51,652 nucleotides of DNA from Nitratireductor sp. Its GTDB lineage: Bacteria; Pseudomonadota; Alphaproteobacteria; Rhizobiales; Rhizobiaceae. The position numbers and the translations under genes are program-made. Positions 47,516-51,652 of this stretch are shown one piece after another (within the stretch, counting starts at the first letter, position 1; each line of letters opens with the position of its first letter). Under the pieces are notes generated by a model that did no database searches, was not told where the DNA came from, and saw nothing but the letters and a program-made list of their open reading frames with translations. The stretch is from the NCBI GenBank assembly GCA_020441665.1, contig JAGRLT010000050.1:1-51652 (forward strand), in the 5' to 3' direction.

Positions 47516-47801
47516 CTTGGCACGGGGTGATTTGGCGGCGATAGGCGGGAAGCTGGCGCTGTCGGCCGAGAGGCTGAGGCGGTGTCGTCATGTTGCTCCC
47601 AGGATCGCGGATCGAATCACGTCTGCCCTGGCGCGTAAAGTTCTCTTATTCCCATATTAATGCTGCGCGGGTGGATCCACGCCGTCAGCGCGATCGCGAT
47701 ATTGCCTTGTCGGGACAGGTTTTCCGGCACCCGTTTTCGCCAATCAAAGGACAGACAGACGCGCGCGGAAGTCGCATCGGGATCGCGGATTGGTGAGAAG
47801 A

Positions 47802-47876
47802 TGGTGGGCGATACTGGGATTGAACCAGTGACCCCTACAATGTCAATGTAGTGCTCTCCCGCTGAGCTAATCGCCC
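47802..47876 (-). tRNA. tRNA-Val(GAC)
   Basis: The minus strand folds into a full cloverleaf: 7-bp acceptor GGGCGAT/ATCGCCC, D-arm GCTC/GAGC, anticodon stem CTACA/TGTAG with loop TTGACAT (anticodon GAC) and T-arm ACTGG/CCAGT. The CCA end is encoded (47802-47804). It is a single tRNA with no adjacent integrase. Confidence 0.95.
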
Positions 47877-47936
47877 ATCCTGGTCCGGGTCGCCCCGGCA
47901 ATGGCGCCGCGGAACGGGTCTGCCGCGGACAGGCCG

Positions 47937-47965
47937 CATACACCATGAAAGGCGGATGGCGTCAA
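47937..47965 (-). promoter_or_regulatory. Candidate promoter of tRNA-Val
   Basis: On the minus strand TTGACG (47960-47965) is followed after 17 bases by TGTATG (47937-47942). The -10 is imperfect, but spacing and position (about 55 bases before the tRNA) fit a stable-RNA promoter. Confidence 0.45.
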
Positions 47966-48012: not shown

Positions 48013-48372
48013 CTAGGCGGCGAGCATTTTCTCGACCTCGTTGACGAGGTCGCGCAGGTGGAAGGGCTTCGACAGAACCTTGGCATCCTTCGGCGCGTTG
48101 GAGTCCGGATTGAGCGCCACGGCGGCAAAGCCGGTGATGAACATGACCTTGAGATCGGGATCGATCTGGGTCGCCCGGCGGGCGAGTTCGATACCGTCCA
48201 TTTCCGGCATGACGATATCGGTCAGCAGCAGGTTGAACGGTTCCTCGCGCAGCCGGTCATAGGCACTGGCGCCATTGTCATAGGCAATGACCTGGTAGCC
48301 GGCATTGTCGAGCGCTTTCTCTAGAAAGCGGCGCATGTCATGGTCGTCTTCGGCAAGCAGGATCTTGTTCAT
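48013..48372 (-). CDS. cpdR: Receiver-domain response regulator CpdR
   Basis: A 119-residue single-domain receiver with no output domain. Acidic residues are Glu8, Asp9 and Asp10 (LLAEDDHDM), the phosphoacceptor is Asp52 in LLLTDIVMPEMDG, with Thr80 (FITGFA) and Lys102 (LSKPFH). The sequence matches CpdR, which in unphosphorylated form delivers ClpXP to its substrates and controls cell-cycle proteolysis. It is phosphorylated through the CckA-ChpT relay, not present here. It is divergent from the second N-formylglutamate amidohydrolase. Confidence 0.93.
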   Translation of the reverse strand: MNKILLAEDDHDMRRFLEKALDNAGYQVIAYDNGASAYDRLREEPFNLLLTDIVMPEMDGIELARRATQIDPDLKVMFITGFAAVALNPDSNAPKDAKVLSKPFHLRDLVNEVEKMLAA

Positions 48373-48606
48373 ATGCGGGTTCCAACAGCGTTTTGACCCA
48401 AACGCTTCAGCGGTGGTTCCTATCGGTTCGACTCATTGCCCACCATTAGACAATACTATGGTAAACGAGCGGTGAAAATGGACCGGATCGCGATTTGATT
48501 CAGCTCCCATCCGCGGCATTGCGCCTGCCGGAAGCCCTTGATTTTCAACAGGCTGAGGGCGCTGCTTGCGATTGAAACGGGCAGGAAAGCCGGGTAGCTT
48601 TCACCG

Positions 48607-49521
48607 ATGAACAGCGCCGACTTCTTCACCATCGCCCGGCCGCAACGGCTTGCCGTTCCCGTGGTGTTCAATTCGCCCCATTCCGGGCGGCACTATCCTG
48701 CCGATTTCCTCAAGGCCTCCGGTCTCGATGGCCATGCCTTGCGCCGGTCGGAGGATTTTGTCGTCGATCAGCTGTTCTCCGGCGCGATGCGCCATGGCGC
48801 GCCGCTGTTGAGCGCGCGCTTTCCCCGCGCCTGGCTCGACGTCAACCGCGAACCCTTCGAGCTCGATCCGCAGATGTTTTCGGGCGCGTTGCCGGCCCAT
48901 GCCAATACCCAGTCGGCGCGGGTGCAGAGCGGGCTCGGCACGATCGCGCGCATCGTCGCCGAAAACGAGGAAATCTATCGCGCCCGCCTGCCGGTCGAAG
49001 AGGCGCTCGCCCGCATCGAACAGGTCTACAAGCCCTATCACGCCGCCCTGCGCGGGCTGCTCGCCGAGGCGATGGCCGGTTTCGGCCATGCGATCCTGAT
49101 CGACTGCCATTCCATGCCGTCGACCCAGACAGTTCAGCGCAGTTCTCCCTTCGGCAGCCGCCGGCAGGAATTGCTGCGTTCCGACTTCGTGCTCGGCGAC
49201 CGCTACGGCACGGCCTGCGCGCCGTTTCTCGTTCATGGCGCCGCGGCTATCCTGCGCGAACAGGGATACCGGGTGGCGATCAACAAGCCTTATGCCGGCG
49301 GCTTCATCACGGAGCATTACGGACGGCCCGAAAAGGGCCTGCACGCGCTGCAGATCGAGGTCAACCGGGCGCTCTACATGAACGAGCCGCGGATCGAGAA
49401 GACCGCCGGCTTCGATGTGCTGGCGGGCGATCTCGACCGTTTCATAGAGCGGCTGATGGCGTTGGTGCTGCACGAAGCCGACGACGCCTTTGCCGCCACC
49501 ATTCCCCTTGCCGCCGAATAA
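48607..49521 (+). CDS. N-formylglutamate amidohydrolase (paralogue 2)
   Basis: A 304-residue metallohydrolase of the same family as the gene at 33.4 kb. Seen are VVFNSPHSGRHYPADFLKAS, LDVNREPFELDPQMF, AILIDCHSMPSTQTVQR and VAINKPYAGGFITEHYGRPE with the expected His/Glu ligands. This is the branch usually named HutG, though without other hut genes here. Start is ATG at 48607. Histidinol phosphatase follows 24 bases after the stop, so the two are probably co-transcribed. Confidence 0.92.
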   Translation: MNSADFFTIARPQRLAVPVVFNSPHSGRHYPADFLKASGLDGHALRRSEDFVVDQLFSGAMRHGAPLLSARFPRAWLDVNREPFELDPQMFSGALPAHANTQSARVQSGLGTIARIVAENEEIYRARLPVEEALARIEQVYKPYHAALRGLLAEAMAGFGHAILIDCHSMPSTQTVQRSSPFGSRRQELLRSDFVLGDRYGTACAPFLVHGAAAILREQGYRVAINKPYAGGFITEHYGRPEKGLHALQIEVNRALYMNEPRIEKTAGFDVLAGDLDRFIERLMALVLHEADDAFAATIPLAAE

Positions 49522-49545
49522 CGGACCATTTTCACAGGAGCTGCC

Positions 49546-50349
49546 ATGGCCTTGCCCGTTTCGCCCGATGCGATGGAATCGTTTCTGCTGGCGGCTGCCG
49601 AGGCCGGCGGCACGGTGGCGCTGGCGCATTTCCGCCGCCGGCCGGATGTCGCCAACAAGGAGGCCGACAAGGGCGCCGGGCGGTTCGATCCGGTTACGGA
49701 GGGCGATCGCGGGGCGGAGGCCGCGATCCGCGCGCTGATCTCGGAACGCTTTCCCGATCACGGCATTCTGGGCGAGGAATACGGTTCGGAGCGCGCCGAT
49801 GCCCGCTATTGCTGGGTGATCGATCCGATCGACGGAACCCGCGCCTTCATTTCCGGCCTGCCGAGCTGGGGCTGTCTGATCGGGCTGATGGAAGACGGGA
49901 TGCCGATCGCCGGCATCATGCATCAGCCGTTCACCGGCGAGAATTATCTCGCCTGCGGCGAGGGCGGCTTTCTCCTGCACCGGGGCAATCGCGAGCGGCT
50001 TGCCGCCAGCGGCTGTGAAAGGCTTGCCGATGCGACGCTGATGACCACCTCCCGGGAAGCCTTTGGCGAAGGCAAGTTCGAGCGCTTCGAAAAGGTCAGC
50101 GAACGGGTCCGGCTCACCCGTTTCGGGTTCGACTGCTATGCCTATGCCATGGTGGCCGCCGGCCATATCGACCTCGTCATCGAATCGGGACTGCATGTCT
50201 ACGACATCGCCGCGCTCATTCCGCTGATCGAGCAGGCGGGCGGCATCGTCACCGGATGGGACGGCAAGGCGGCGCCGCGGGGCGGCGACATCATCGCGGC
50301 CGCCAGCAAGGCGCTGCATGCCGAGGCGCTTGCCGTGCTCAATGGCTGA
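49546..50349 (+). CDS. hisN: Inositol-monophosphatase-family phosphatase, histidinol-phosphatase-like
   Basis: A 267-residue metal-dependent phosphatase. Metal ligands are Glu77 in LGEEYGSE, and Asp93 and Asp96 in WVIDPIDGTRAFISGLPSW; later FGFDCYAYAMVAAGHIDLVI and LHVYDIAALIPLIEQAGG fit the family. The RAFISGLPSW segment, the FGFDCYAYAMVA run and the neighbouring amidohydrolase favour the HisN (histidinol-phosphatase) branch over inositol monophosphatase. GGAG lies upstream of the ATG. Confidence 0.85.
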   Translation: MALPVSPDAMESFLLAAAEAGGTVALAHFRRRPDVANKEADKGAGRFDPVTEGDRGAEAAIRALISERFPDHGILGEEYGSERADARYCWVIDPIDGTRAFISGLPSWGCLIGLMEDGMPIAGIMHQPFTGENYLACGEGGFLLHRGNRERLAASGCERLADATLMTTSREAFGEGKFERFEKVSERVRLTRFGFDCYAYAMVAAGHIDLVIESGLHVYDIAALIPLIEQAGGIVTGWDGKAAPRGGDIIAAASKALHAEALAVLNG

Positions 50350-50491
50350 GGCATGGACGGCTTGGTGATCGGGCGGTCACAAAAACTGACGGATTGTTGA
50401 TTTCCGGTTGAGCGGCATCCTCGTGCAGTCTGCCTTTGCCGGCTGCGGGACGGGATCGTCCGGCCGGAGGAAAACGAACAAGGAGAACCGC

Positions 50492-50800
50492 ATGTCCAGG
50501 AAGACCGTCGCTTCTGCTGCCGCCGTCGCGGGAGCCATCACCACCGCCCTTTCCCTGGGGGTTGCCGTCGAACCGGCGCATGCCGCCAAGATCAAATGCT
50601 TCGGCGTATCGCTGGCCGGCCAGAACGATTGCGCCGCGGGTCCCGGCACGACCTGTGCCGGCACGTCGAAGGTCGATTATCAGGGCAATGCCTGGAAATA
50701 TGTCGAGGCTGATTCGTGTCAGGCAATCGTCATCAAGGTCGACGGTCAGGAGGACCGCATGGGTTCGGACATGGCGCTTGAGCGCGATCTGCCGAGCTGA
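50492..50800 (+). CDS. Bufferin-type precursor peptide (DUF2282)
   Basis: A 102-residue exported small protein. A signal peptide runs through ~residue 31 ([20 protein letters not shown]), and the mature part holds four Cys (36, 47, 55, 76) in [35 protein letters not shown] and [11 protein letters not shown]. This is the DUF2282 pattern seen in bufferins, RiPPs whose Cys are modified by an MNIO enzyme and which bind copper. AAGGAGAA precedes the ATG. The MNIO gene follows after 40 bases. The substrate-binding role is known from the family, not shown here. Confidence 0.88.
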
Positions 50801-50840
50801 TCGGGCGCGAAGATCGACCACAACAACCCGGGAGGCAGGC

Positions 50841-51652
50841 ATGACCGCGACCCTTCTGTCCGCCAATCTGCCTCCCTCGGCCTTTGAGGTGGCTCCGCTG
50901 CCGGCCCGTGCCGGCGCCGGCCTCAAGGCGGCCCATGTGGACACCATCCTCGCCGCCGATGCGGGCAGGGGTGCCGATATCGGCTTTTTCGAGATTCACG
51001 CGGAAAACTATATGGGCGCCGGCGGACTTCCCCATGCTCAGTTGCGCGCCATTCGCGAGCGCTATCCGATCAGCCTGCACGGGGTCGGCATGTCGATCGG
51101 CGGCATCGGGGCGATCGATGCGGATCATCTCGCCCGCTTCAAGAGGCTCAACGAAATCTATCGGCCGGGCCTGGTGTCCGAGCATCTCGCCTGGTCGACC
51201 CATGACGATATCTTCCACAACGATCTGCTGCCCGTTCCCTATACGGGTGCGGTGCTGCGGCGGGTGGTCGAGCATGTGGACCAGGTCCAGACGGCGCTTG
51301 GCCGCACGCTTCTGATCGAAAACCCGTCTACCTATGTGACCTTTGGAGAATCGACCTGGAGCGAATTCGACTTCATGGCCGAGATTGCCCGGCGGTCGGG
51401 CTGCGGCCTGTTGTTCGACGTCAACAATGTCTTTGTCTCGGCCACCAATCACGGCTTCCAGCCGGAAGCCTATATCGATGCCTATCCGCTCGAAAAAGTC
51501 GCGGAAATCCATCTGGCCGGCCATGCGGACGATACGGATGATGACGGCAACCGGCTGCTGATCGACGCTCATGACCGGGCCGTCTCGGCCGATGTCTGGA
51601 CGCTCTACCGGCGCGTCGTCGAGCGCACCGGGCCGCTGCCGAGCCTGATCGA
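50841..51652 (+). CDS. DUF692 / MNIO-family RiPP-modifying enzyme, 3' end outside window
   Basis: The first 270 residues of a DUF692 protein, the multinuclear non-heme iron-dependent oxidative enzyme family (relatives: MbnB, TglH, ChrH). Seen are RAGAGLKAAHVDTIL, FFEIHAENYMGAGGLPHAQL with Glu51, His53 and Glu55, SLHGVGMSIGGIGAID with His80, VSEHLAW, IENPSTYVTFGEST, LLFDVNNVFVSATNHGFQPE and EIHLAGHA. These supply the His, Glu and Asp that bind iron. GGGAGG is 7 bases upstream of the ATG. It should oxidatively modify Cys of the preceding precursor. Confidence 0.92.
   Translation, partial: MTATLLSANLPPSAFEVAPLPARAGAGLKAAHVDTILAADAGRGADIGFFEIHAENYMGAGGLPHAQLRAIRERYPISLHGVGMSIGGIGAIDADHLARFKRLNEIYRPGLVSEHLAWSTHDDIFHNDLLPVPYTGAVLRRVVEHVDQVQTALGRTLLIENPSTYVTFGESTWSEFDFMAEIARRSGCGLLFDVNNVFVSATNHGFQPEAYIDAYPLEKVAEIHLAGHADDTDDDGNRLLIDAHDRAVSADVWTLYRRVVERTGPLPSLI

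Follow-up and report, generated by a model that had tools for sequence, protein, structure and literature searches.

Buf1 bufferins are derived from DUF2282 precursors which have four conserved cysteines; the central ones are modified and the outer two are linked by a disulfide. The genes follow a strict bufABC order, DoxX is found among the core genes, and copper chelation has been demonstrated for the member from Caulobacter vibrioides (PMC12452194; this and the other papers cited by PMC number are represented here by excerpts of their text). DUF2282 products are grouped with the thiooxazole metallophores (PMC13097082). The captophorins (fontiphorin and oxazolin) resemble Buf1 in having an MNIO enzyme with a DUF2063 partner, and thiooxazole chemistry, but their precursor consists of EGKCG repeats instead of a four-cysteine DUF2282 domain (PMC13097082).

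In the Caulobacter operons CC3254–CC3257 and CC2907–CC2905, the genes for DUF2282, DUF692 and DUF2063 proteins are arranged as in the locus described here, with DoxX in CC3257 (PMC3511200). The RpoE7-controlled operon SMb20530–SMb20527 of Sinorhizobium meliloti also includes DUF692 and DUF2063 genes (PMC6180224), and its precursor is 59.7% identical to the present one over residues 31–102. The gold-induced (GIG) operon of Legionella pneumophila has DUF2282, DUF692, DUF2063 and DoxX-type genes, as here; induction by gold and copper and an influence of RpoS have been reported (PMC5413113).

The window, that is, the whole stretch of DNA that was analysed (51,652 bases), is an entire contig (C6) of its genome. 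Since the end of the window is also the end of the contig, the downstream partner genes were sought on another contig, and they were found on C123. The features of the locus are as follows.

50387–50411, forward strand: conserved upstream element TGACGGATTGTTGATTTCCGGTTGA, a candidate operator, conserved 5' of bufA in other genera
50480–50485, forward strand: probable ribosome-binding site AAGGAG for bufA, read from the sequence
50492–50800, forward strand: bufA, Buf1-type (DUF2282) bufferin precursor, 102 aa (PF10048 match, alignments)
50492–50584, forward strand: probable Sec signal peptide of BufA (MSRK...EPAHA), assigned by eye, as is the cleavage after AHA
50841–51652, forward strand: bufB, MNIO (former DUF692) bufferin maturase, first 270 codons, cut at the contig end (PF05114, NCBIfam MNIO_BufB)
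C123 (L040), reverse strand, 117 bases from the contig end: bufC, DUF2063 (PME-type 1) partner, 264 aa (85.1 bits, cut-off 27.2)
C123 (L040), reverse strand, after bufC: bufD, DoxX-like, 198 aa (weak DoxX match)

The bufA gene starts with an ATG, which six bases separate from AAGGAG. Its product matches Pfam DUF2282 (PF10048) with 73.2 bits, for a cut-off of 22.4, and contains exactly four cysteines (positions 36, 47, 55 and 76). The initial annotation described a secreted four-cysteine precursor with no other recognisable fold: the cysteines and the signal-peptide-like start are there, but the second part is wrong, the protein being a member of the DUF2282 family. BufA scores 21.8 bits on the BufA2 model, the sole NCBIfam bufferin-precursor model to appear, below its cut-off of 60, and so has no equivalog-level name. 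The precursor had no relatives in a PDB sequence search at E values up to 1, and its structure model (mean pLDDT 55.2) is too poor for use. A precursor match is present in 61 of 101 genomes (the genome itself and 100 relatives), and the NDC.AG.GT.CAGT core and the four cysteines are invariant across 30 aligned precursors, the window's own included.

The bufB gene starts with an ATG at 50841, 40 bases past the bufA stop, and its frame is open through the last base of the window. Despite the truncated C-terminus, BufB scores 306.2 bits against PF05114 (cut-off 25) and 338.4 bits against NCBIfam MNIO_BufB (cut-off 310). These scores confirm the earlier assignment of a DUF692/MNIO enzyme closely following the precursor; the bufferin type proposed for the pair also holds, with a precursor of the DUF2282 family and an enzyme above the bufferin-maturase cut-off. 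Taken together, the scores of the two proteins, the presence of the precursor in 61 genomes and its invariant cysteine core indicate that the pair is not there by chance.

The initial annotation expected DUF2063 and DoxX-like genes to come next, and regarded the absence of partner genes as grounds for refutation. Both are present directly after the enzyme, at the start of the reverse strand of C123, although the DoxX likeness is weak: BufD reaches 31.0 bits over 39 profile positions of Pfam DoxX in a six-frame search and 19.6 bits as a whole protein, for a cut-off of 23.6. BufC and BufD are far under the HvfC and HvfX equivalog cut-offs. Ten loci with wide flanks (L041–L048, L050 and L051) share all four genes and their order; an eleventh, L049, which is a more distant second copy in genome G058, has bufABC and no DoxX match.

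The gene content, the order, the family membership and the conservation of the Buf1 operon are thus established. Taken whole, the locus is best explained as a Buf1-type bufferin operon, bufABCD, and this can be held with high confidence. It adds a member to a family that has been described, rather than representing a new system. The initial view of the locus as a little-described system has to be given up, since the large family of Buf1 (DUF2282) bufferins is already in print (PMC12452194).

Examined by eye, the genes flanking the operon include no copper gene and no gene for another metal. Upstream of bufA (48013–50349), the window encodes a receiver-like protein, an N-formylglutamate amidohydrolase and a member of the inositol-phosphatase family. 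The amidohydrolase and inositol-phosphatase-family genes are also directly 5' of bufA in L041, L043, L045, L046 and L051, which indicates that the chromosomal location of the operon is fixed within the genus. The window also contains a tRNA-Val gene (anticodon gac, 47802–47876, reverse strand); the open frame which overlaps it (47617–47946) is probably an artefact.

The same genome has a Buf2 (six-cysteine) bufferin locus on contig C1 (L001, 649–2691), where MNIO and DUF2063 genes follow the precursor, as in the window operon. The BufA2 precursor scores 98.2 bits (cut-off 60), the maturase 382.9 bits (310) and the DUF2063 partner 58.5 bits (27.2), and there is no DoxX match on C1. The genome therefore has both bufferin types. 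The tail of BufB reads E-W-D-N, compared to E-R-D-D in the Buf2 enzyme, and 20 Buf1-type loci, which were retrieved using the tail of the window operon's own enzyme as query, have E-W-D followed by N, S or T. Cys-Lys (Buf2-type) enzymes have an aspartate at a site which is variable among DUF2282 enzymes (PMC13097082, excerpts), and the position that distinguishes the two tails is, judging from the sequences, probably that site. Relatives of the operon also occur on plasmids: 240 plasmid records, 60 of them from Escherichia, match the window precursor, and on two conjugative enterobacterial plasmids (L217, 3902–6406; L218, 4902–7389) there is an operon of four genes, whose annotations are DUF2282, DUF692, DNA-binding and DoxX.

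The Caulobacter operons are under the control of sigma-F, with GTAACC-N16-CGAA promoters (PMC3511200), whereas the genome of the window has no NrsF match and the window bufA no upstream sigma-F site with fewer than two mismatches. The best sigma-F site upstream of the window bufA has three mismatches to GTAACC-N16-CGAA and two to a looser pattern. No gene for an NrsF-type anti-sigma factor was matched in the genome itself or in the single-contig relative G004; the genome is 93.65% complete, so its own lack of NrsF is no proof when taken alone, but G004 is without NrsF too. Sigma-F control of the window bufA was rejected because neither an NrsF match nor a good promoter site was found. The locus also differs from that of S. 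meliloti, which has adjacent sigma and anti-sigma frames and an exact GTAAC-N17-CGAA site upstream. The influence of RpoS in Legionella implies, as far as the excerpts of that work go, that there is precedent for control of such operons by something other than sigma-F. Sigma factors and NrsF are mentioned in the landscape paper on bufferins (PMC12452194), whose main text is without the words "regulator" and "promoter".

The upstream element was first noticed when eight upstream regions were aligned (the window, six loci of the same genus and one of the same family). It has the pattern TNAC-N6-TTGATTTCC-N3-TGA, with half-sites phased at 10–11 bases, and its end is 80 bases from the bufA start codon in the window. 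The core TTGATTTCC-N3-TGA, with at most one mismatch and within 250 bases 5' of bufA, is present in 32 of 109 loci; this number includes the eight discovery loci and 79 named loci, some of which are perhaps conspecific with the others, which means that the sets are not independent of each other (out of 80 named loci, one was dropped because its upstream sequence was too short). The same core occurs once in 545 shuffled sequences, the shuffling preserving base composition only. Hoeflea, Nitratireductor, Martelella, Oricola and a Mesorhizobium are among the named carriers. In a 7.2-kb stretch of S. meliloti pSymB, where the record is unannotated, the bufA strand contains no TTGATTTCC.

A logo of 36 sites with up to two mismatches shows TGA-like half-sites at −20, −10 (TNAC), +1 and +12, the first T being 0; the half-site at −20 is weak, and reads TCA in the window. 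Outside the half-sites, A is conserved at +29 in 32 of the 36 sites and at −29 in 27, T at +23 in 26 and G at +26 in 25. The length between the element and the start codon varies among loci, and the positions of the element end and the bufA match start differ by 69–125 in 23 genomes. The possibility that TTG ATT TCC NNN TGA forms a short reading frame upstream was considered and discarded, since several relatives do not keep its stop.

The longer pattern TNAC-N6-TTGATTTCCA-N2-TGA has nine exact sites in the 101 genomes, and all nine are 5' of bufA. With one mismatch, 12 of 18 sites are 5' of bufA, including that of the window, and with two mismatches, 2 of the 23 tallied sites. As the pattern was derived from some of the same sequences, finding it 5' of bufA is partly circular; this does not apply to its rarity elsewhere. 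A wider regulon was sought among the six one-mismatch sites that lie away from bufA and was not retained: the five viewed by eye (all except that of G016) have no gene type in common.

Eight stretches with short-pattern sites elsewhere were also viewed. One such site, with two mismatches to the long pattern, is 5' of a DUF2062-like gene in genomes G004 and G005, where TTGATTTCCATTTGA is found (L084, 2186–2200, and L085, 3033–3047); an rsh-like gene precedes it in G004 and the contig ends just upstream in G005 (both genes named by eye). On C1, a relative of the element with two mismatches (L202, 2157–2181; C1 83156–83180) is about 175 bases 5' of a small frame encoding a secreted-looking protein with repeated YVDAKDGG. 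Relatives of this type are present in three other genomes of the genus, twice in two of them. The Buf2 locus on C1 has no match to the element nearby at up to two mismatches. Literature searches by topic turned up no paper that deals with the element in its title or in the opening of its abstract.

The element and sigma-F control are distributed differently. An exact sigma-F-type site is 5' of bufA in 12 of the 109 loci, none of which is among the 32 element loci, although two of the latter (L006 and L121) are also one mismatch off the looser sigma-F pattern. Frames related to the sigma and anti-sigma frames of S. meliloti were found nearby in 9 of the 12 sigma-site loci, in 2 of the 65 others and in none of the 32 with the element; 14 of the element loci were shorter than 7 kb as examined, so that more distant sigma genes could escape. 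In the 61 genomes which have bufA, the element is present in 23, none of which has NrsF, compared to 17 of the 38 without the element, and 21 genomes have neither (Fisher p = 7e-5 at the genome level, uncorrected for relatedness). From these sequence patterns, we infer that the element marks a regulator other than sigma-F.

It can tentatively be proposed that, in many Rhizobiaceae-related bacteria, the bufferin operon lies outside the sigma-F regulon and is under a dedicated activator, perhaps a response regulator of the OmpR/PhoB type, which would act via an operator of TGA-like half-sites phased at 10–11 bases and nearly exclusive to bufA. OmpR/PhoB-type response regulators typically use phased direct half-sites. 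It is doubtful, but not far-fetched, that the element is instead the promoter itself, read by an unrecognised sigma factor, or a transcribed leader. Its position relative to bufA suits a promoter, no regulator gene is seen linked to it, and positions are also conserved beyond the half-sites, the strongest being the A at +29, so that the element could belong to the promoter. However, 50300–50900 contains nothing that matches an E. coli-type sigma-70 promoter, phased half-sites are uncommon in promoters, and the stretch between the element and the start codon is of variable length. A known structured RNA upstream of bufA was also rejected, as no Rfam family comes near its gathering score in 50250–51652.

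As for the dedicated activator, no candidate gene was recognised by eye beside the element loci, whose recurrent neighbours are mostly housekeeping genes, some of the frames being spurious antisense ones (also by eye). The element may resemble a Pseudomonas copper box. A CopR-like regulator was considered and rejected: the best of 27 TIGR01387 matches in the genome scores 242.7 bits, for a cut-off of 279.2.

The thiooxazole chemistry, the choice of the modified cysteines, the export and the copper binding may be proposed by analogy with the described systems. In the cytoplasm, BufC would hand the precursor BufA to BufB, an iron enzyme, which would oxidise the central cysteines 47 and 55 to 5-thiooxazoles, while a disulfide would join cysteines 36 and 76. 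The modified product would be exported by Sec and bind excess copper in the periplasm, which it would thereby protect. The DoxX-like BufD would be an accessory membrane protein, and transcription would be driven by a regulator other than sigma-F via the phased element. The same machinery could have a main ligand or stress other than copper (gold, mercury, another soft metal, thiol or oxidative stress), which seems rather unlikely. Gold-induced operons and MerC fusions are mentioned in PMC12452194, the sigma-F operons of C. crescentus respond to chromium (PMC3511200), and the element is unlike a sigma-F promoter; on the other hand, the sole Buf1 product with described chemistry in these excerpts, that of C. 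vibrioides, binds copper, and the flanks of the operon show no gene for another metal.

The break of the operon at the end of the window is very probably an assembly break. The reverse strand of C123 opens with CTGATCGA, which is identical to the last 8 bases of the window (an 8-base overlap), and continues BufB in frame (LIEWDNDVPEW...) to the stop, providing its last 37 residues. Of the two DUF2063 matches in the genome, one follows the enzyme on C123 and the other is in the Buf2 locus on C1. Downstream of bufABCD are convergent gltD–gltB genes (named by eye), as in G004, a single-contig genome of the same genus where bufABCD and gltD–gltB follow each other unbroken. It is highly improbable that C6 and C123 lie apart in the genome, the window pair being a remnant without bufCD: the junction is supported by eight shared bases only, but the enzyme continues in frame across it, the only other DUF2063 match belongs to Buf2, and the doxX–gltD–gltB order is that of the single-contig genome.

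The locus is thus settled as a Buf1 bufferin operon that is complete and conserved. What deserves to be followed up is the element upstream of it. This element is a concrete and testable handle on the control of bufferins where sigma-F is absent. If a dedicated activator does act through it, these bacteria would have a separately wired switch for bufferin synthesis, possibly triggered by a periplasmic metal or an envelope signal.
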